Shown: positions 16,472 through 24,208 of the stretch, one piece after another
How the letters are laid out: each line of letters opens with the position of its first letter
How positions within the stretch are numbered: the first letter of the stretch is position 1
From: Candidatus Kapaibacterium sp.
GTDB lineage: Bacteria; Bacteroidota; Ignavibacteria; Kapaibacteriales; WFXC01
NCBI GenBank assembly: GCA_026996895.1
Contig: JALWJX010000081.1
Location: 1-44,718 of the forward strand
Length of the DNA: 44,718 nt
Direction: 5' to 3'
The notes under the pieces: generated by a model
What the model was told of the DNA's origin: nothing
What the model saw: only the letters and a program-made list of their open reading frames with translations
Databases searched by the model: none
Program-made: the position numbers and the translations under genes

Positions 16472-17952
16472 AGCAGATCCGGCAGACGACGTCTGTTTAT
16501 TTCATTGGAATCGGCGGTATTGCTATGAGCAGCGTGGCGGTTGCAATGCAGCATCGGGGATTTCGGGTTGGTGGTTCTGATCAGCAGATCTATCCACCAG
16601 CATCTGAACTGCTGGGCTCGACAAATGTCAGGCTGTATACGCCGTACTCGGAGCACAATCTCCGGGATTTTGCCCCTGATCTGGTCGTCGTGGGCAACAG
16701 TGTGTCGCGGGGGAATCCGGAAGTGGAGTATGTGCTTTCCCATCGCTTGCCTTTCGTGTCGCTGCCGGAACTGGTGAAGCGGGAAATCGTAGAGGGAACG
16801 TTTTCGATCGTTGTGACGGGTACGCACGGGAAGACGACCACAACCGCTCTGATAGCGTGGATACTGGAGCGTGCGGGCTATGCTCCCGGCTTTTTAATTG
16901 GTGGCATACCGGGCAATTTTTCCTCTGGTTTTCGATATCCGCAGCGAACTGCTCTGGCTGATACACCCGTTGTGGTGCTGGAAGGGGATGAATACGACGC
17001 TGCCTTTTTCGATAAGCGCAGCAAATTTTTGCATTATTTGCCATCCGTTCTGGTGATGAACAATCTGGAGTACGATCACGCCGATATTTTTCCCGATATG
17101 GCAGCACTCAAGCAGCAGTTTCGATGGTTACTCCGCCTGGTGCCTGCGGATGGGCTGCTGGTCGCTAATGGTGATGATGCCAACGTGATGGAGGTGCTAC
17201 GCACCGGTCCGGTGTATGCTTCAAACATTCGCCGATTCAGTTTCAATGGACAGGGAGAAGTGCACATAACGATCCTTGAAACAACAGCGCAGGGCAGTCT
17301 CTTTCAAATCCACGATCGGCAGAGCCGTACGACACAGGAATTCTGGCTTCCCATACCGGGGAGGCATATGGTATCGAATGCCGTTGCTGCCATCACTGCC
17401 GTTCGGCCACTAGCAATATCACATCAGGTACTGCAACACGCTCTGGAAACCTTCCGGCTGCCCCGCCGGCGCCTGGAGCGCAAAGTGACAGCAGGGGAGA
17501 TAACTGTTTATGAGGATTTTGCCCACCATCCGACAGCGTTGCGAGCGACATTGCAGGCATTGCGGCAGCAGCATCCTGAACAGCGACTGGTCGCTGTAGT
17601 GGAACCCCGATCGAACACGATGGTGCGGCGAGTTTTTCAGCAGCCGATGGCAGAAGCATTGCAGGCAGCCGACGTTGTGTTTTTTGCACCACCTTATCGC
17701 TATCAACGGTATGCACCGGAAGATCGGCTGGATATTGAACAATTAGCCAGGCAGTATCGACAGCAGGGGAAGCAAGCAGAGGCGGTGCCACTGCAATGGT
17801 GGGATCGCCAGTGGAGCGACTGGCTACTGGGGAGACTGCAAAGTATAGTTGTCGATGGTGATGTGGTGGTATTTTTCTCCAATGGTGCTTTCGATGGACT
17901 GGTGCAGAAATTTGTGGAACAACTGGAGCATTTAAAGCAGATCGATGAGTGA
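16468..17952 (+). CDS. mpl: UDP-N-acetylmuramate:L-Ala-gamma-D-Glu-meso-DAP ligase
   Basis: This 494-residue Mur ligase is better matched to Mpl than to MurC. It begins with the FIGIGGIAMSSVA dinucleotide-fold loop and has VVGNSVSRGNPEVEY, the ATP loop VTGTHGKTTTT, and the Mpl-specific block VVLEGDEYDAAFFDKRSKF followed by NNLEYDHADIF. The C-terminal domain has VYEDFAHHPTALRATL. Mpl re-attaches recovered murein tripeptide to UDP-MurNAc, so this organism recycles peptidoglycan and has a Gram-negative, meso-DAP wall. The start is GTG 16468, overlapping the upstream TGA by three bases. Its end overlaps the 97-residue ORF by 8 nt. Confidence 0.93.
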   Translation: MKQIRQTTSVYFIGIGGIAMSSVAVAMQHRGFRVGGSDQQIYPPASELLGSTNVRLYTPYSEHNLRDFAPDLVVVGNSVSRGNPEVEYVLSHRLPFVSLPELVKREIVEGTFSIVVTGTHGKTTTTALIAWILERAGYAPGFLIGGIPGNFSSGFRYPQRTALADTPVVVLEGDEYDAAFFDKRSKFLHYLPSVLVMNNLEYDHADIFPDMAALKQQFRWLLRLVPADGLLVANGDDANVMEVLRTGPVYASNIRRFSFNGQGEVHITILETTAQGSLFQIHDRQSRTTQEFWLPIPGRHMVSNAVAAITAVRPLAISHQVLQHALETFRLPRRRLERKVTAGEITVYEDFAHHPTALRATLQALRQQHPEQRLVAVVEPRSNTMVRRVFQQPMAEALQAADVVFFAPPYRYQRYAPEDRLDIEQLARQYRQQGKQAEAVPLQWWDRQWSDWLLGRLQSIVVDGDVVVFFSNGAFDGLVQKFVEQLEHLKQIDE

Positions 17953-18238
17953 GAATTTACTCCAACTCCTGTGTCAACGCCGGGGGTTATCCTATGCTGC
18001 TGAACAGATGCGGGCTTTGCAGCAGTTTGTTACCTATATGGATCGCCATAGCTATTGGTTGAAAGATATTCTGGAACAGGATGATCGTCGACTGTTCCGC
18101 TTCAGCGATGAAACCTCGCACATCGATTTGAGTGAGGAACAGATCTGGGCATTTATACAGCAACTCCGGCAGGGAAAGCCGCTGCCGTGGGAGCAGTTGA
18201 TTTTGGGAACAAAGCAGGAACATAAGGATGAAGAATGA
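17945..18238 (+). CDS. Hypothetical 97-residue acidic protein
   Basis: I do not recognise this protein. It is 97 residues, mostly helical by composition, with no signal peptide, membrane segment, Cys pair or known motif. The sequence has a Trp/Phe-containing C-terminal half and ends in a charged HKDEE tail. It overlaps the mpl end by 8 nt and the DnaQ-DinG start by 11 nt, which supports its being a real translated gene in the same operon rather than a shadow. It could be a small partner of the downstream exonuclease, but that is only position-based inference. Confidence 0.7.
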   Translation: MSENLLQLLCQRRGLSYAAEQMRALQQFVTYMDRHSYWLKDILEQDDRRLFRFSDETSHIDLSEEQIWAFIQQLRQGKPLPWEQLILGTKQEHKDEE

Positions 18239-20948
18239 AACGCCGCTGCAATATCTTGGATCTTTTGTAGCGCTGGATTTTGAAACGACCGGAACAGATG
18301 TTGCCAATGATGCCATTATTGAAATTGGCGCATTGAAATATGAGGACGGACACGAGGTGGATCGCTTCCATACACTGGTCAACCCGTTTATGCCGCTGCC
18401 GGCTTACATTACGGAGTTGACGGGAATCACTGAAGAAGATCTGCAAGCTGCCCCGGCTTTTGCCCATATTATCGAGCCTTTCTGGCAGTTCATTGATGGT
18501 TATCCTCTGATGGCGCATAATGCTCGGTTTGAGCTCAAGTTTCTCCAGAAGTTTTTTGGCAGAGACTTCCAACCACCGTTGCTGGACACCGTTCAATTAT
18601 TTCAACTGCTTTTTCCGGAGCAGCATTCTCACTCGCTGGAACAGGTTGCTCGACATCTTGGGCTTTCGCTGCCTGGCGGACAAAGTCATCGTGCATTGGA
18701 AGATGCAGCGTTGATGGTGGAAACGGTGCAGCGCGCCATTCATCTGTTAATGCTGCCAGAACACCATCCTCTGGTTGCTACTATCGTGGCAGTTCTCAAG
18801 CGGCTGGATGGTACCCGATGGCAGTGGCGGACGCTGTTTCGGAATCTGCATCAAGCGCTTGGATTGCCTGCTGATTCGCTTGACCAGAACCTGTTGTATC
18901 ATCCGGAGCTTCCTGAGGAAGAGAATCGACAAAGGAAAAAAGGAGCACTGGATCCACTCTTTTTTTATCTGCCCGTTGCTGTGCAGGACGTGCTGGCAGA
19001 GTGGATTGAGAGTGTTGTTGCTACCCCGGTGCATTTTGTTGAAACCAGTAAGCGAGCGCGGCGCGTGGGGGATTGGCTGGCACAGCAGAATGGGGAATCT
19101 CTTCTTATTGCCTCTGAACCTTCGTGGGAATGGCTGCTCAGCACACTGCTGGGAGCGCTTTCGTACGTGCAGGAGACCGGCAAGGCTGTATGTATCGTAG
19201 CACCCGGTGCCCAGAAGCGGGAGGATCTTGTGGAAATTGCTCACTCGTTGAAGCAGTATTTGCAGGCAGAAGAGTTGCAGATCGATCGAGTGTGGCAGCC
19301 AGTGCACTTTGTCTGTCCCCGTCGACTGCCAGCGCTGCTGGAAGGGTATTACCCGGATAGCGACGATCCGGTTGCTTCGGAGTTTTTTGTCCGCCTCTTT
19401 TTAACCCTGTGGGGAATGCGGACAACAACGGGACGGGTGCAGGAATTACCGCCGCAATTGCGCTCTCACGACAGGATTGGCCAGTGGCTGGAAAAGCTGA
19501 CTCACCACACAGAGGAGTGCCTTCAGCCAAGCAGCCAGTGCTTCTATGGTCGATATTATCAGACGGCACGGAATGCGCACCTGCTGTTTGCTGACTACGG
19601 CGCTCTGTTGAATGCGCAGCAGCCAGAACTGCAATTGCTGCCATTGCTTCGCCCGGCGATAATCGGACTGGAAGCAGAAGTGCTGGAGGATCTGCTGATC
19701 GCACAGAATACCATCCGCATTCCACTCCACCAGTTGTTGTCGCTATTGCATCATCTGGAGGATCGGCTTACGGAGCAGGAGGCATTTCGGTCAGCACGGT
19801 ATGCAGTGGAAGAATTGCTGGCAGAGCTGCGTCAGTCACAACGCCAACAAATTGTAACTTATGTTCCGCTGTCAGGACACGAACAATCATCGGAATGGCT
19901 GGAGAAATTGCACAGTGTTGGACAGCAACTGCAATTGGTTGTTGAGCAATTGAATCAGCTCCCGGCGGACTTTCAGCAGGAGAGCGAACGAATAACCACA
20001 GTGCTTCAGGAGTGGAGTCGATTGCTGGACCAGTTCAACCGGGCGAATTATGTGAGCTATGGGCAGTTGCATCGGGATGGCAACACTTTTTTGGTTTCCT
20101 CGCAATTGCAGCTTACGGATTCGGTGGAGCAATTGCTCTCTATATGGCAGAGTGCTTCAACAGTTCTATTGAGTTCTTCGTTGTTTTATCATCCCGAAGA
20201 GCGCCACCGTTTGAGCGAGCTTTTCTTTGGCACTACTGCTGTACCTTTTGTTGATCTGCCACTGGAATCTGCACGACGGGGAAAGGTCATCTTTACGAAA
20301 GGACTGCCGCGATCATCCAGCGAATATTTCGGTGAGAAAATCGCTTTGATGCTCCACAGATTGCTGCCGTTGTTGCCAGCCAATGCATGGATTGTTGCGC
20401 ACCAGCGGAACGTGCTGAGCCGGATCTACCAGTTGGTACAGGAAATTTTGGGTGATCGGCTGATATATTATGGCAAGACGCACCGCACGTTGACCGCCTT
20501 ACGGGAAGAGTTAGCACAGCGGGAAGATGTCGTTTTGCTTTCGCGCCCCCTGGACTTCCACGCTTTAGGCTATCGCTTTGGTCCATTCCGGTGGATCATT
20601 TATGATCGGCTGCCATATATCATTCCAACCCCACGAACGCAGGCACTTCGCCAGCAGTGGCTGGATGCCATAGGGGAATCGGGAGAGATGCCGGCGCTGA
20701 ATGATTGGGAAGCGATTGAACAACCGATGATGTTTCGCAATTTCCGGAAATTATTCGATTTCGTCAGTTACGGCGTGCAGGATGCGTATACGGTTGCCGT
20801 GCTGGATCCAAACTTAAGCTCGACGACGCTCGCAAGCTATCACCGCCGAATGCTGGAATATGTTCCGCATATCAAACCTGTACTGGAACACTATGAACAG
20901 ATCATCGCTGCTGCAACTGGTACGGTTGCTGGTGTAACGCCTTCATAA
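18228..20948 (+). CDS. dinG: DnaQ-DinG fusion: active-looking exonuclease with degenerate helicase domain
   Basis: This 906-residue protein is built like the DnaQ-DinG fusions of Firmicutes. Residues 10-175 are a DEDDh 3'-5' exonuclease with D17 and E19 (ALDFETTGTD), HNARFE (97-102, acid at ExoII is Glu) and H154/D159 (HRALEDA). The rest aligns by order to DinG/XPD helicases, but the ATPase motifs are lost. The Walker A position reads ASEPSWEW (295-302). The DEAH position reads IGLEAEVLEDL (479-489). Motif VI (normally QGxGRxIR) reads FRNFRKLFDF near the C-terminus. Three cysteines at the usual Fe-S positions remain (C363, C431, C438) and one is missing. It probably works as a nuclease, not as a helicase; S. 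aureus DinG is a known precedent. Confidence 0.88.
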   Translation: MKNETPLQYLGSFVALDFETTGTDVANDAIIEIGALKYEDGHEVDRFHTLVNPFMPLPAYITELTGITEEDLQAAPAFAHIIEPFWQFIDGYPLMAHNARFELKFLQKFFGRDFQPPLLDTVQLFQLLFPEQHSHSLEQVARHLGLSLPGGQSHRALEDAALMVETVQRAIHLLMLPEHHPLVATIVAVLKRLDGTRWQWRTLFRNLHQALGLPADSLDQNLLYHPELPEEENRQRKKGALDPLFFYLPVAVQDVLAEWIESVVATPVHFVETSKRARRVGDWLAQQNGESLLIASEPSWEWLLSTLLGALSYVQETGKAVCIVAPGAQKREDLVEIAHSLKQYLQAEELQIDRVWQPVHFVCPRRLPALLEGYYPDSDDPVASEFFVRLFLTLWGMRTTTGRVQELPPQLRSHDRIGQWLEKLTHHTEECLQPSSQCFYGRYYQTARNAHLLFADYGALLNAQQPELQLLPLLRPAIIGLEAEVLEDLLIAQNTIRIPLHQLLSLLHHLEDRLTEQEAFRSARYAVEELLAELRQSQRQQIVTYVPLSGHEQSSEWLEKLHSVGQQLQLVVEQLNQLPADFQQESERITTVLQEWSRLLDQFNRANYVSYGQLHRDGNTFLVSSQLQLTDSVEQLLSIWQSASTVLLSSSLFYHPEERHRLSELFFGTTAVPFVDLPLESARRGKVIFTKGLPRSSSEYFGEKIALMLHRLLPLLPANAWIVAHQRNVLSRIYQLVQEILGDRLIYYGKTHRTLTALREELAQREDVVLLSRPLDFHALGYRFGPFRWIIYDRLPYIIPTPRTQALRQQWLDAIGESGEMPALNDWEAIEQPMMFRNFRKLFDFVSYGVQDAYTVAVLDPNLSSTTLASYHRRMLEYVPHIKPVLEHYEQIIAAATGTVAGVTPS

Positions 20949-21123
20949 AACGTCGATGGTGCGAATTGTTAAAAAAATGACACTACTGGCACTGCCGGTA
21001 CAATACTTTGAAAAAGAAATTCGTTGTACGCTTTTGTAACCTTCTATGTGAAAAATTTTTGGCGTGTCGCCCTCTTGATTTTTTATAACCGAATTGTTTA
21101 ACAAATCGCGGGAGAACCAACAG
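20949..21123 (+). promoter_or_regulatory. AT-rich upstream region of the H1-like gene
   Basis: This 175-bp gap after dinG is AT-rich and contains no ORF worth naming. Candidate promoter pieces are TTTTGTAACC and TTTTTTATAACC near 21034-21093, but no pair with correct TTTG/TAnnTTTG spacing was found. A purine-rich GGGAGAA precedes ATG 21124 by about 9 nt. No terminator with a T-run follows dinG. Confidence 0.25.
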
Positions 21124-21531
21124 ATGGCAAAGCGAAAGAAAGCGGCTGAGGCAACGGAGACAACCAGCGAAGCCACGAGTCAGGCAGAAAAGAAGCGCAC
21201 TTATGCGAGCGAGTATTACCAGCGGAATCGTGAGCGGATCTTGGCATATCTCCGGAAGCGCTATCACGAAGATCCGGAGTATCGGGAAAAGGTGAAAAAG
21301 CGAGCGCTGGAACGGTACCATAATGATCCGGAATATCGCCGGCGCACGATTGAGCGTGCCAAGCAGCGATATTACCGGATGCGGGAAGCGCTGATGATCC
21401 TGGAGCGGCAGCGGGCAGAAGAAGAAGCACGGAAGCAGAAGGAGCAAGAGGCGAAGAAAGCGGCAAAAAAGAGCGCAAAGTCCGCCAGTAGTGCCAAAAA
21501 AAGCAGCAGTTCGAAAAAGAAAAAGAAGTAA
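21124..21531 (+). CDS. Lysine-rich histone H1-like protein with DPEYR repeats
   Basis: This 135-residue, very basic protein has no known enzyme domain. The N-terminus is MAKRKKAAEATE followed by a Thr/Ser/Glu linker. The centre has two tandem copies of a motif of about 21 residues containing RYH(E/N)DPEYR (KRYHEDPEYREK and ERYHNDPEYRRR), preceded by a related YYQRNRERI half-copy and followed by QRYYRMREAL. The C-terminus is a Lys/Ala/Ser tail ending in five lysines, like bacterial histone H1 homologues (AlgP, Hc1/Hc2). DNA or RNA binding is inferred from charge. ATG 21124 is chosen over the in-frame upstream start at 21094 because of the GGGAGA ribosome binding site and the typical MAKRKK start. 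A strong terminator follows, so it is likely monocistronic and well expressed. Confidence 0.82.
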   Translation: MAKRKKAAEATETTSEATSQAEKKRTYASEYYQRNRERILAYLRKRYHEDPEYREKVKKRALERYHNDPEYRRRTIERAKQRYYRMREALMILERQRAEEEARKQKEQEAKKAAKKSAKSASSAKKSSSSKKKKK

Positions 21532-21578
21532 CACCTCGGCAGGAAGAACTTAGTAAACCAGAGGTGTGACTCAAGTGA

Positions 21579-21613
21579 GCGGGAAACTGCCGATAGCAGT
21601 TTCCCGCTTTTTT
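21579..21613 (+). terminator. Rho-independent terminator of the H1-like gene
   Basis: A perfect 12-bp stem, GCGGGAAACTGC (21579-21590) paired with GCAGTTTCCCGC (21596-21607), closes a CGATA loop and is followed by six T (21608-21613). It lies 48 nt after the stop. A second inverted repeat, ACACCTC (21531-21537) with GAGGTGT (21561-21567), sits between the stop and the terminator. Confidence 0.92.
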
Positions 21614-21642
21614 GTTGCATTTTTGTAAGTACTTTACCAGAA

Positions 21643-22695
21643 ATGATGCGTCGTAGCACTCCATCGCAGCGTGAGCAGTTTTCGTTTCGTTTGTTTCAAC
21701 GATGGAGCACGGAAGCAAAAGCACTATTGAAATTTTCTGGTGGCGTATTCCTACTGTTTGCTGCTATTCTCACGGTACATTCCTGGACGGCACTCCAGCC
21801 TCTTGAAACTGTTTTCCTTGGGGAGGAAACAGCGCCGTGGCTGCTATCGGCTATCTTCGTTGTTGTTGGTGTCGTGATTTTCTGGCATTACCGACAAAAG
21901 CTGCGGACGAAAAGTCTGAGTCTGGTGATTAAGGACATTCTCACTGGAAACATCGAAGGGTTTTACGGATTAATTGCTGTGCTGGCGTTTTTAATTCTGA
22001 CGTCGTGGGTTGCCGATGATCTACACGATCACCAGTATGGTTATGCAGTACTGTCGCTGCTTGCGATCTGGATCATGGGAATGTTCTTTGTCATCTGGTA
22101 TCCGCTTGAATCCCGATCGCCGGCGAAGGTTCCACCTAAAGTACTGGTTATGGCGTTGTCAGCTTTTGCAGGAGATATGGAGCAGTTTCAACGGTCATTG
22201 GCTCAACTTCATCAGCGAAAACTTCCTGGCAACTGGGAATTGCCACTTCGAGCAGTGCTCTCTAAACCCAGCTTGGAACACGTTTTCTTTTTAACCAGTA
22301 AGAAATCTTGGGATCAGCGTCAGGAGTTTGAGAAATTGCTGGACGAAGCTCTATCGTTGAATATTCAAGATTCGTCCCGTCCACAATTGCACTTTGAGGA
22401 CCCGGTGGATTTCGACAGCTTTATCGATGTCAAGCAAAGTCTTTTGGAGATTCTGGGGAGCATTCACTCGATCCGTGACCGGCGCTACCGTGATGAGGAA
22501 ATTATTGTGAACATCAGCGGTGGAACCTCCGCAGTAACCTTAGCATTGACACTCTTTGCACTGGCAAAAGGGCGACGAATTGAGTATTTTGAGCAAGGAC
22601 AGGTGGAAAATGATCGACCCGCCGCACTACGGGATTTCGATATTACGGAGAGCGATGCGGTTGTATTTTTGCGGAGGCTTACGCTTCAGGAGTGA
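21643..22695 (+). CDS. Four-helix membrane protein with C-terminal CARF-like domain (TM-CARF)
   Basis: The N-terminus of this 350-residue protein has four hydrophobic helices (about 32-50, 65-83, 107-124 and 133-153). From about residue 165 a Rossmann-type domain follows with the CARF order. It opens with strand KVLVMALSAF, then HVFFLTSKKSWDQRQEFEKLL (213-232), then the acidic strand LHFEDPVDFDSF leading into a helix, and then the hallmark IVNISGGTSAVTLALTLFAL (288-307), equivalent to the N-x-[ST]-G-G-T-x-x-M loop that binds cyclic oligoadenylate. CARF domains sense cOA made by type III CRISPR complexes, and membrane CARF effectors such as Cam1 depolarise the cell. No cas gene or clear CRISPR array lies in this window, so here the trigger is unknown. 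The gene stands alone after a strong terminator. Confidence 0.72.
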   Translation: MMRRSTPSQREQFSFRLFQRWSTEAKALLKFSGGVFLLFAAILTVHSWTALQPLETVFLGEETAPWLLSAIFVVVGVVIFWHYRQKLRTKSLSLVIKDILTGNIEGFYGLIAVLAFLILTSWVADDLHDHQYGYAVLSLLAIWIMGMFFVIWYPLESRSPAKVPPKVLVMALSAFAGDMEQFQRSLAQLHQRKLPGNWELPLRAVLSKPSLEHVFFLTSKKSWDQRQEFEKLLDEALSLNIQDSSRPQLHFEDPVDFDSFIDVKQSLLEILGSIHSIRDRRYRDEEIIVNISGGTSAVTLALTLFALAKGRRIEYFEQGQVENDRPAALRDFDITESDAVVFLRRLTLQE

Positions 22696-22921
22696 AAAAG
22701 TCGTTGGCGGTGAATTGAAAGTAGCTGAGAAGCGATGTTATGGGTAGTATTGCCATAACGCATTATAAGAACCCTTATGTTAAGTTCAGATTTACCGTAC
22801 TCCCCTGCGCTGATTGACCGCCGCTGTTTTTACAAAATTCCTCGTAACGTTCTCTCCACAAAGGTGTTAATCTTGGGATTGAGGGTAGGTTTATATGTTT
22901 CACGGTTGAGGAGTCGAGCCT
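22696..22921 (+). promoter_or_regulatory. Promoter region of the CC-repeat lipoprotein gene
   Basis: The gap holds an inverted repeat GTTATGG (22737-22743) / CCATAAC (22753-22759) with a 9-nt loop but no T-run, perhaps a weak terminator or operator. A near-consensus Bacteroidota-type -7 element TATGTTTC lies at 22894-22901 with TTGG at 22873-22876 (17-nt spacer). The lipoprotein ATG is at 22922 after GAGGAG, which would leave a leader of under 20 nt. No RNA gene was seen. Confidence 0.35.
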
Positions 22922-24208
22922 ATGCGGCGCGGGTTCCATCTTATCAGTATTTTCCTGTTCATAGTTACAGCCCTGTTTATCGCTTCTTCCTGCCAGAAAC
23001 AACCGACAGTACCTGATGATGAAGTGAGTGGTTGTTGCGGCGAGTTTCAGTTAACGGTTCGTGATTCTGCGGAGCATCCAGTAGCGGATCTGTATGTTGC
23101 GCTGCTTCAGAGTGGTGACACGCTTCGTATTGGGCGGACAACTGCCAGCGGCACTGTATCGTTTGATTCTCTCTGTCCGGGTAACTACGCTTTTCTTGTA
23201 GCTGGGGCTCCCGGTTTCCGCCCTGTTGCTGCTTATGGGCACTTTACCATCGATTCCTGTGGGAAAGTGCAGAAACATCTTACGCTGTCGCCCCACCATG
23301 GTGATGGATACAGCAAGAGAGATTCCAGTGATTGCTGTCAGAGCATGCTCATCGTGGAAGTACAGGATACCACAGAGACAGGAACTCCCCTTCACGGTGC
23401 TGCCGTTGTTTTGAAGTCTGCGCATGGGCAACCGCTGGATACAAAGCTGACCGATGTCGAGGGTCGTGTTGTTTTCGCTCCTTTATGTTCCGGCACCTAT
23501 ATCGTTGTCGTGGAGGCAGATGGGTATCACCGTTATGAGAATTCAGTTCATATTGGCTGTGATGACCCAACCGAGCACTCGGTGGGACTTACAGCGGTCG
23601 TGGAATGTTGCGATAACCGGGTATGGGTACAGGTGCAGGATCGGGAGCATCAGGTAGTTGAGGGAGCATGGGTTGAGTTGCTGGATCTTACACATCGTCC
23701 TGTGCGGGTGATCCGCTCAGGATATACCAATGCCGATGGTGTCATTGTGTGGGAAGATCTTTGTACTGGACACTATCGGGTACGGGCTACCTATGCTATT
23801 GCTGGTGAACACGGTGACTCTTTACTAACCGTAGCCGAGGAAGATTTCGATGTTGAGTGTGAAGACAACAAAGAGATAGTCCTGACCCTCGAGCCACTTC
23901 GGGAATGCTGCAATCACCTGTTACACGTCGTTTTGCAGGACAATCGTACCTCCCCTCCCTCACCAATAGCTGATGCAGAAGTGCGATTGCGGTACCCCAA
24001 CGGCGAAACCATCGAAACAGTCCATACAAACGATGATGGCGAGGCGTGGTTCGACGGAATTTGCCGTGGAACGTATGAAGTCCGCATTGCACATCCAGAC
24101 TATCCGGTTCAGGAAGTTGTCATAGAATTTCCCTGCAAACGCCAGCAGCTTGATCTGGTTGTTGTGTTTACCGGTTCAACCGCGCAGGTGCGTATCTCAA
24201 CAGAGTAA
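22922..24208 (+). CDS. Lipoprotein with four tandem cysteine-framed carboxypeptidase-regulatory-like domains
   Basis: This 428-residue exported lipoprotein has a basic n-region, a hydrophobic stretch and an ASSC lipobox with C24 as the lipidated residue. It then has four beta-sandwich repeats of the CarboxypepD_reg/Cna-B/PEGA type, each with the G----F--LC-G-Y segment. Every repeat carries exactly four cysteines in register: C38 C39 C85 C113; C138 C139 C189 C213; C229 C230 C281 C313; C329 C330 C381 C405. The vicinal CC pair opens each domain. This pattern suggests two disulfides per domain. No enzyme motif is visible. A role in surface adhesion or as a scaffold is only inferred. A strong terminator follows at 24255-24284. 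Confidence 0.82.
   Translation: MRRGFHLISIFLFIVTALFIASSCQKQPTVPDDEVSGCCGEFQLTVRDSAEHPVADLYVALLQSGDTLRIGRTTASGTVSFDSLCPGNYAFLVAGAPGFRPVAAYGHFTIDSCGKVQKHLTLSPHHGDGYSKRDSSDCCQSMLIVEVQDTTETGTPLHGAAVVLKSAHGQPLDTKLTDVEGRVVFAPLCSGTYIVVVEADGYHRYENSVHIGCDDPTEHSVGLTAVVECCDNRVWVQVQDREHQVVEGAWVELLDLTHRPVRVIRSGYTNADGVIVWEDLCTGHYRVRATYAIAGEHGDSLLTVAEEDFDVECEDNKEIVLTLEPLRECCNHLLHVVLQDNRTSPPSPIADAEVRLRYPNGETIETVHTNDDGEAWFDGICRGTYEVRIAHPDYPVQEVVIEFPCKRQQLDLVVVFTGSTAQVRISTE

Follow-up and report, generated by a model that had tools for sequence, protein, structure and literature searches.

The gene at 18228-20948 probably encodes, to judge from its sequence, an ExoDinG whose motor has been inactivated in evolution and whose exonuclease is intact, a protein that would carry out ATP-independent 3'-5' trimming with the ex-helicase holding or positioning the strand. 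It lies on a stretch of 44,718 nucleotides from Candidatus Kapaibacterium sp., here called the window. A first-pass annotation of this DNA had proposed that DnaQ is fused here to a DinG whose helicase is dead, and family models, alignments and motif readings bear this out. The gene is a single open frame of 906 codons, with the following parts:

18228..20948, + strand: ExoDinG gene with inactivated helicase region, 906 aa (open frame and family models; copies of 96% identity in two congeneric genomes)
18261..18752, + strand: DEDDh 3'-5' exonuclease domain, residues 12-175 (Pfam RNase_T; 32/32 conserved positions; dN/dS 0.02-0.04)
18948..20945, + strand: DinG-like C-terminal region, residues 241-906, motor-dead (hhalign, Foldseek, dN/dS 0.08-0.12)

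Both halves of the ExoDinG architecture are recognizable. Pfam RNase_T matches residues 14-164 (E 9.5e-29), and the N-terminal DEDDh domain has its catalytic acids and histidine (D17, E19, E102, H154, D159). C-terminal homology to DinG/XPD, with motor domain 1 (MD1), the Fe-S/arch region and motor domain 2 (MD2), is evident from hhalign, Foldseek, the model for ATP-dependent helicase DinG (NF005981, spanning residues 12-634) and the YoaA model NF053712 (residues 393-808, E 8e-13); Pfam helicase models find no match, the DinG part being recognized by full-length models only. The NCBIfam model dinG_rel, TIGR01407, matches in two stretches (E 4e-46) at 157.7 bits, under its curated cut-off of 547.7 bits, but since the intact Kapabacteria ExoDinGs sampled likewise fall under it, with none of 395 genomes exceeding it, the cut-off does not separate members here. 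An Rfam search of 17900-23000 yielded no match. Membership of a defence system was considered and rejected, the PADLOC models matching only the generic DEDDh and DinG parts.

The exonuclease appears fully equipped. From 27 intact ExoDinGs, 116 positions at least 90% conserved were taken for retention counts, and the exonuclease retains all 32 of those that fall within it. Its catalytic residues are:

18276..18284, + strand: Exo I acids D17 and E19, invariant in 30/30 aligned ExoDinGs
18531..18533, + strand: Exo II acid E102, where most other ExoDinGs have Asp (ExoDinG alignment)
18687..18704, + strand: Exo III H154 and D159, invariant in aligned ExoDinGs

The claim that the catalytic acids are complete therefore stands for D17, E19, H154 and D159, though it had passed over Exo II, where there is Glu102 rather than Asp. 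Among the 30 aligned ExoDinGs this residue is Glu in all three focal proteins and in nine intact Kapabacteria rows, and Asp in 16 of the 18 others. Such a substitution could reduce catalysis. The Exo II Glu (AHNxxFE) is found in every Kapabacteria ExoDinG examined, those with intact helicases included (loci L031-L041 and the window).

The helicase half is another matter. It was compared with ten intact ExoDinGs of the same order, E. coli DinG and YoaA, and proteins of Bacillales/Lactobacillales and Marinimicrobia, and by alignment to the intact relatives motifs Q, I, Ia, II, III, V and VI are all gone. The former sites of three are:

19110..19136, + strand: former Walker A/motif I, residues 295-303, ASEPSWEWL (gapless alignment to EAGTGTGKT)
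19665..19682, + strand: former motif II/DEAH box, residues 480-485, GLEAEV (alignment)
20748..20771, + strand: former motif VI, residues 841-848, KLFDFVSY, arginine fingers gone (alignment)

Loss of all three had been noted from the sequence beforehand and is confirmed by the alignments: ASEPSWEW without GKT at residues 295-302, GLEAEVLE for the DEAH box (in full IIGLEAEVLE), and KLFDFVSY where intact proteins have QMFGRLIR. Thus none of what an SF2 helicase of XPD-DinG type requires, Walker A (GxGKT/S), a DEAH/DEAD box and the motif VI arginines, is present where ASEPSWEW, GLEAEV and KLFDFVSY now stand. In addition, motif III reads LSSS against TSAT in intact proteins, and the ANH motif is missing. 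Retention of conserved positions is 0/19 in the Walker A half of MD1, 3/4 around motif II and the arch, 8/18 in the Fe-S/ANH region and 15/43 in MD2. An intact GxxGxGKT or DEAH placed elsewhere in the protein was sought and none was found; the rest of the protein and the two remaining forward frames are likewise free of P-loop, DExH and arginine-finger patterns. The sole GKT, at 749-751, was rejected as a displaced Walker A, as it aligns to the HGIT/HGKT segment of MD2.

What remains is still recognizably DinG. Profile-profile comparison (hhalign) with intact DinG regions gives 99.1% probability across residues 359-883, a match that stops short of the Walker A half, whose placement comes from the gapless full-length alignment together with a modelled strand-loop-helix (strand 292-296, then helix 300-317, flanking the former Walker A). 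The fold model (pLDDT 71, pTM 0.58) has as its nearest solved structure S. aureus DinG, 8zef (Foldseek E 1.1e-30), followed by E. coli DinG and XPD. When only the three focal sequences are supplied, the prediction collapses to pLDDT 34, and so the fold model cannot count as independent evidence. That the dead region was acquired from another source was rejected: its profile, run against 395 genomes of the phylum, matches only the congeners and, weakly, the intact proteins of family f7, and viral contigs match the exonuclease part only.

The dead region retains some features of the intact proteins:

19314..19316, + strand: Fe-S ligand position 1, C363 retained (alignment)
19518..19541, + strand: Fe-S ligand positions 2 and 4, C431 and C438 retained; position 3 lost by a 4-residue deletion (alignment)
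20607..20639, + strand: retained MD2 patch, residues 794-804, RLPYIIPTPRT, counterpart of the KLPF segment by which S. aureus DinG contacts ssDNA
20706..20708, + strand: W827, equivalent of the ssDNA-stacking F823 of S. aureus DinG (alignment)

The protein has exactly four cysteines (322, 363, 431 and 438), and alignment verifies the proposal that three of the four Fe-S cysteines survive, as ligands 1, 2 and 4. Where the Fe-S subgroup of DinG/XPD has four Cys ligands for its [4Fe-4S] cluster, three are left here, the third having been deleted. That the protein descends from an Fe-S DinG, as had been suggested, is supported by the aligned cysteines and by the tree described below. The three cysteines might bind zinc, a cluster whose fourth ligand is not Cys, or nothing at all. 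As to the strand itself, the ssDNA-gripping residues of S. aureus DinG are K801, F804 and F823 (PMC12345164), to which the segment R794-T804 and W827 correspond by alignment, Trp being present at the equivalent of W827 in the intact Kapabacteria ExoDinGs too. Nevertheless, several contact positions have changed (among them R858 of S. aureus DinG to N862, and K801 to R794) and ANH is lost, so strand binding by the dead region is not assured; nor does the DinG-like region carry net positive charge.

How might such a protein earn its keep? The window ExoDinG would be an ATP-independent trimmer of 3' ends in ssDNA and/or RNA, with the former helicase acting as a passive clamp or guide that holds, orients or selects the strand instead of unwinding it, perhaps made more rigid by a metal or Fe-S centre. 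For the ex-helicase, the first-pass annotation had envisaged a structural or DNA-guiding role, which is plausible. B. subtilis ExoDinG degrades ssDNA without ATP, and its Walker A mutant K290A retains exonuclease activity (PMC12525004), as does the DEAH mutant E465A of Listeria DinG (PMC12774634); with both mutants still exonucleases, a motor-free ExoDinG is biochemically plausible. There is a functional analogy in AddB and RecC, where an inactivated helicase domain is reused for reading single strands for a nuclease (PMC4824097). More tentatively, and with the odds somewhat against it, the window protein might be a natural motor-free ExoDinG whose DinG fold, holding a metal or an Fe-S centre, guides single strands for the 3'-5' exonuclease without ATP, the SF2 counterpart of what AddB/RecC are for SF1. 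The analogy has its limits: like the window protein AddB and RecC have a helicase fold without ATPase motifs that works with a nuclease, but their fold is SF1, they belong to multisubunit complexes with live motors and recognize Chi, and they are not homologous in the relevant sense.

Two other functions deserve consideration, though each is unlikely. In one, the C-terminal region is a protein-interaction scaffold that docks the exonuclease on a polymerase, another helicase or the ribosome and makes no contact with nucleic acid. The small number of conserved positions left in MD2 and in the Walker A half, despite strong selection, is in keeping with this, as is the action of E. coli YoaA, a DinG relative, through its partner HolC (PMC11981726); the retained residues, however, are concentrated around the Fe-S cysteines and in the very part of MD2 by which S. 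aureus DinG contacts ssDNA. The other, to which we give about the same low weight, is that of an ATP-independent RNA quality-control exonuclease which trims or removes unprocessed rRNA, the dead region recognizing structured RNA. Listeria DinG acts on pre-23S rRNA with its DEAH mutant still an exonuclease (PMC12774634), and S. aureus DinG degrades RNA as well (PMC11981726), but no RNA-specific feature was found in the window ExoDinG. This RNA role is compatible with the preferred clamp or guide, only the substrate being different.

The history of the gene bears on a further possibility, that of a relic turning into a pseudogene. ExoDinG is present in 14 of 123 genomes of the order: this genus contributes three, and families f7, f8 and f10 the other 11. 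Three species of the genus (the window genome and two further genomes) carry the same motif-less protein at 96% identity. All ten fully read ExoDinGs of f7, f8 and f10 have intact GTG(T/I)GKT, DEAD and GRLIR; the eleventh (G030) is split by a contig end, with Walker A and DEAD intact in one piece and a Helicase_C_2 match in the other. The survey of relatives that had been called for thus places the loss in three congeners, with the motifs intact in the ten fully read sister-family proteins. Frameshift or assembly error was rejected, the three genomes agreeing and no motif being hidden in other frames. In the exonuclease tree the dead trio is sister to the intact Kapabacteria ExoDinGs (support 98/95), and in this genus, as in f8 and f10, Mpl is found upstream of ExoDinG on the same strand. 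Sister-group relationship and common gene order together argue for loss of the motifs in place, most likely once, on the stem branch of this Kapabacteria family, with the gene in its ancestral position. In f8 and f10 a metal-type ABC transporter cassette on the opposite strand separates Mpl and ExoDinG (L033:3969-8010, L040:4779-8988); it is absent from that place in the window.

Identity of the window ExoDinG to its intact relatives is 45% in the exonuclease versus 12-23% in the helicase region, and between the intact families the motor parts MD1 and MD2 show roughly the same conservation as the exonuclease, which points to an episode of rapid change in the helicase alone. The description of the helicase domain as long and otherwise well kept accordingly holds within the genus (96% identity) but not against intact relatives. 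The dead helicase region is itself under strong purifying selection. By simple pairwise NG86 estimates, which involve few substitutions, dN/dS for residues 241-906 is 0.08-0.12 in the three pairwise species comparisons; the exonuclease gives 0.02-0.04, MD2 0.05-0.09 and the loose linker 176-240 0.38-1.17, and the dead-region values fall inside the range of seven neighbouring genes (0.02-0.20). The region is therefore not decaying, and a pseudogene is rejected. A helicase region decaying behind a working exonuclease, which the contrast in identity to intact relatives might have suggested, is largely refuted by this selection, acting over 666 residues in all three pairs, with no stop or frameshift in three genomes 96% identical; we regard it as very improbable. 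Least credible of all is a live motor with unrecognized, highly divergent ATP-binding residues, for though the overall fold is probably retained, all ATP-site motifs have been replaced together, the Walker A Lys, motif II Asp and motif VI arginines included, and there is no alternative P-loop.

Transfer of the helicase role to another gene was also rejected: Helicase_C_2 has no match elsewhere in the window genome, and Helicase_C_2 proteins occur in just 11 of 119 genomes of the order. DinG helicases, counted as DinG/XPD-type Helicase_C_2, look dispensable in the order.

Set beside known systems, the ExoDinGs of S. aureus, B. subtilis and Listeria (TIGR01407; PDB 8zef, 9ii8) share architecture, predicted fold and N-terminal DEDDh domain with the window protein, but they keep Walker A, DEAH and motif VI where it has no ATP motifs, and they lack most Fe-S cysteines where it retains three. 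S. aureus DinG had been offered as a parallel, a nuclease rather than a helicase; that does not hold, since it has 5'-3' helicase activity and unwinds DNA (PMC12345164), and the window ExoDinG is, judged by its motifs, a more extreme case. The Kapabacteria f7, f8 and f10 proteins (L031-L041) are orthologues with the Exo II Glu in common and, in f8 and f10, Mpl upstream, but unlike the window protein they have intact ATP motifs and all four Fe-S cysteines. CasDinG and pExoDinG likewise are DinG-family members minus a defining element (Fe-S cluster and exonuclease acids, respectively), yet they keep the helicase that the window protein has lost. Among DinG-like proteins, according to a 2025 review, both the Fe-S cluster and the exonuclease have been lost in some members (the latter in pExoDinG), and a limited literature search that included passages of this review turned up no helicase-dead ExoDinG; our own survey for motor-dead ExoDinGs covered this phylum. 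A Phocicoccus ExoDinG of 836 aa (L132) keeps Walker A and DEAH, has GRLKR as motif VI and no Fe-S cysteines, and is possibly a drifting helicase.

If real, a helicase-dead ExoDinG would mean that selection keeps exonuclease and helicase scaffold together, which fits the finding that ATPase-dead ExoDinG mutants remain nucleases. It would be a natural case of separated functions, in which the Fe-S domain and strand channel of DinG can be examined without the motor, and, should the motor-free guide be true, would make Fe-S domain function separable from unwinding for study.

The neighbourhood offers some further observations. Directly downstream of ExoDinG, at 21094-21531 (+ strand), is a gene for a 145-aa protein very rich in Lys, Arg and Glu, with no Pfam match, 98-100% identity in the two sister species and dN/dS of 0.035. 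Two genes downstream, at 21643-22695 (+ strand), is the gene of a CARF-domain protein with a membrane anchor (PADLOC TM+CARF, E 1.6e-17). This protein is likely an ancillary effector of type III CRISPR, and at 72-84% identity in sister species it diverges much faster than its neighbours. A Csm1/Cas10 gene is found elsewhere in the window genome (G000:C45:50647-53079) and in one congener (G002); in the other (G001) the best Csm1/Cas10 match is a short piece within a 144-aa frame.
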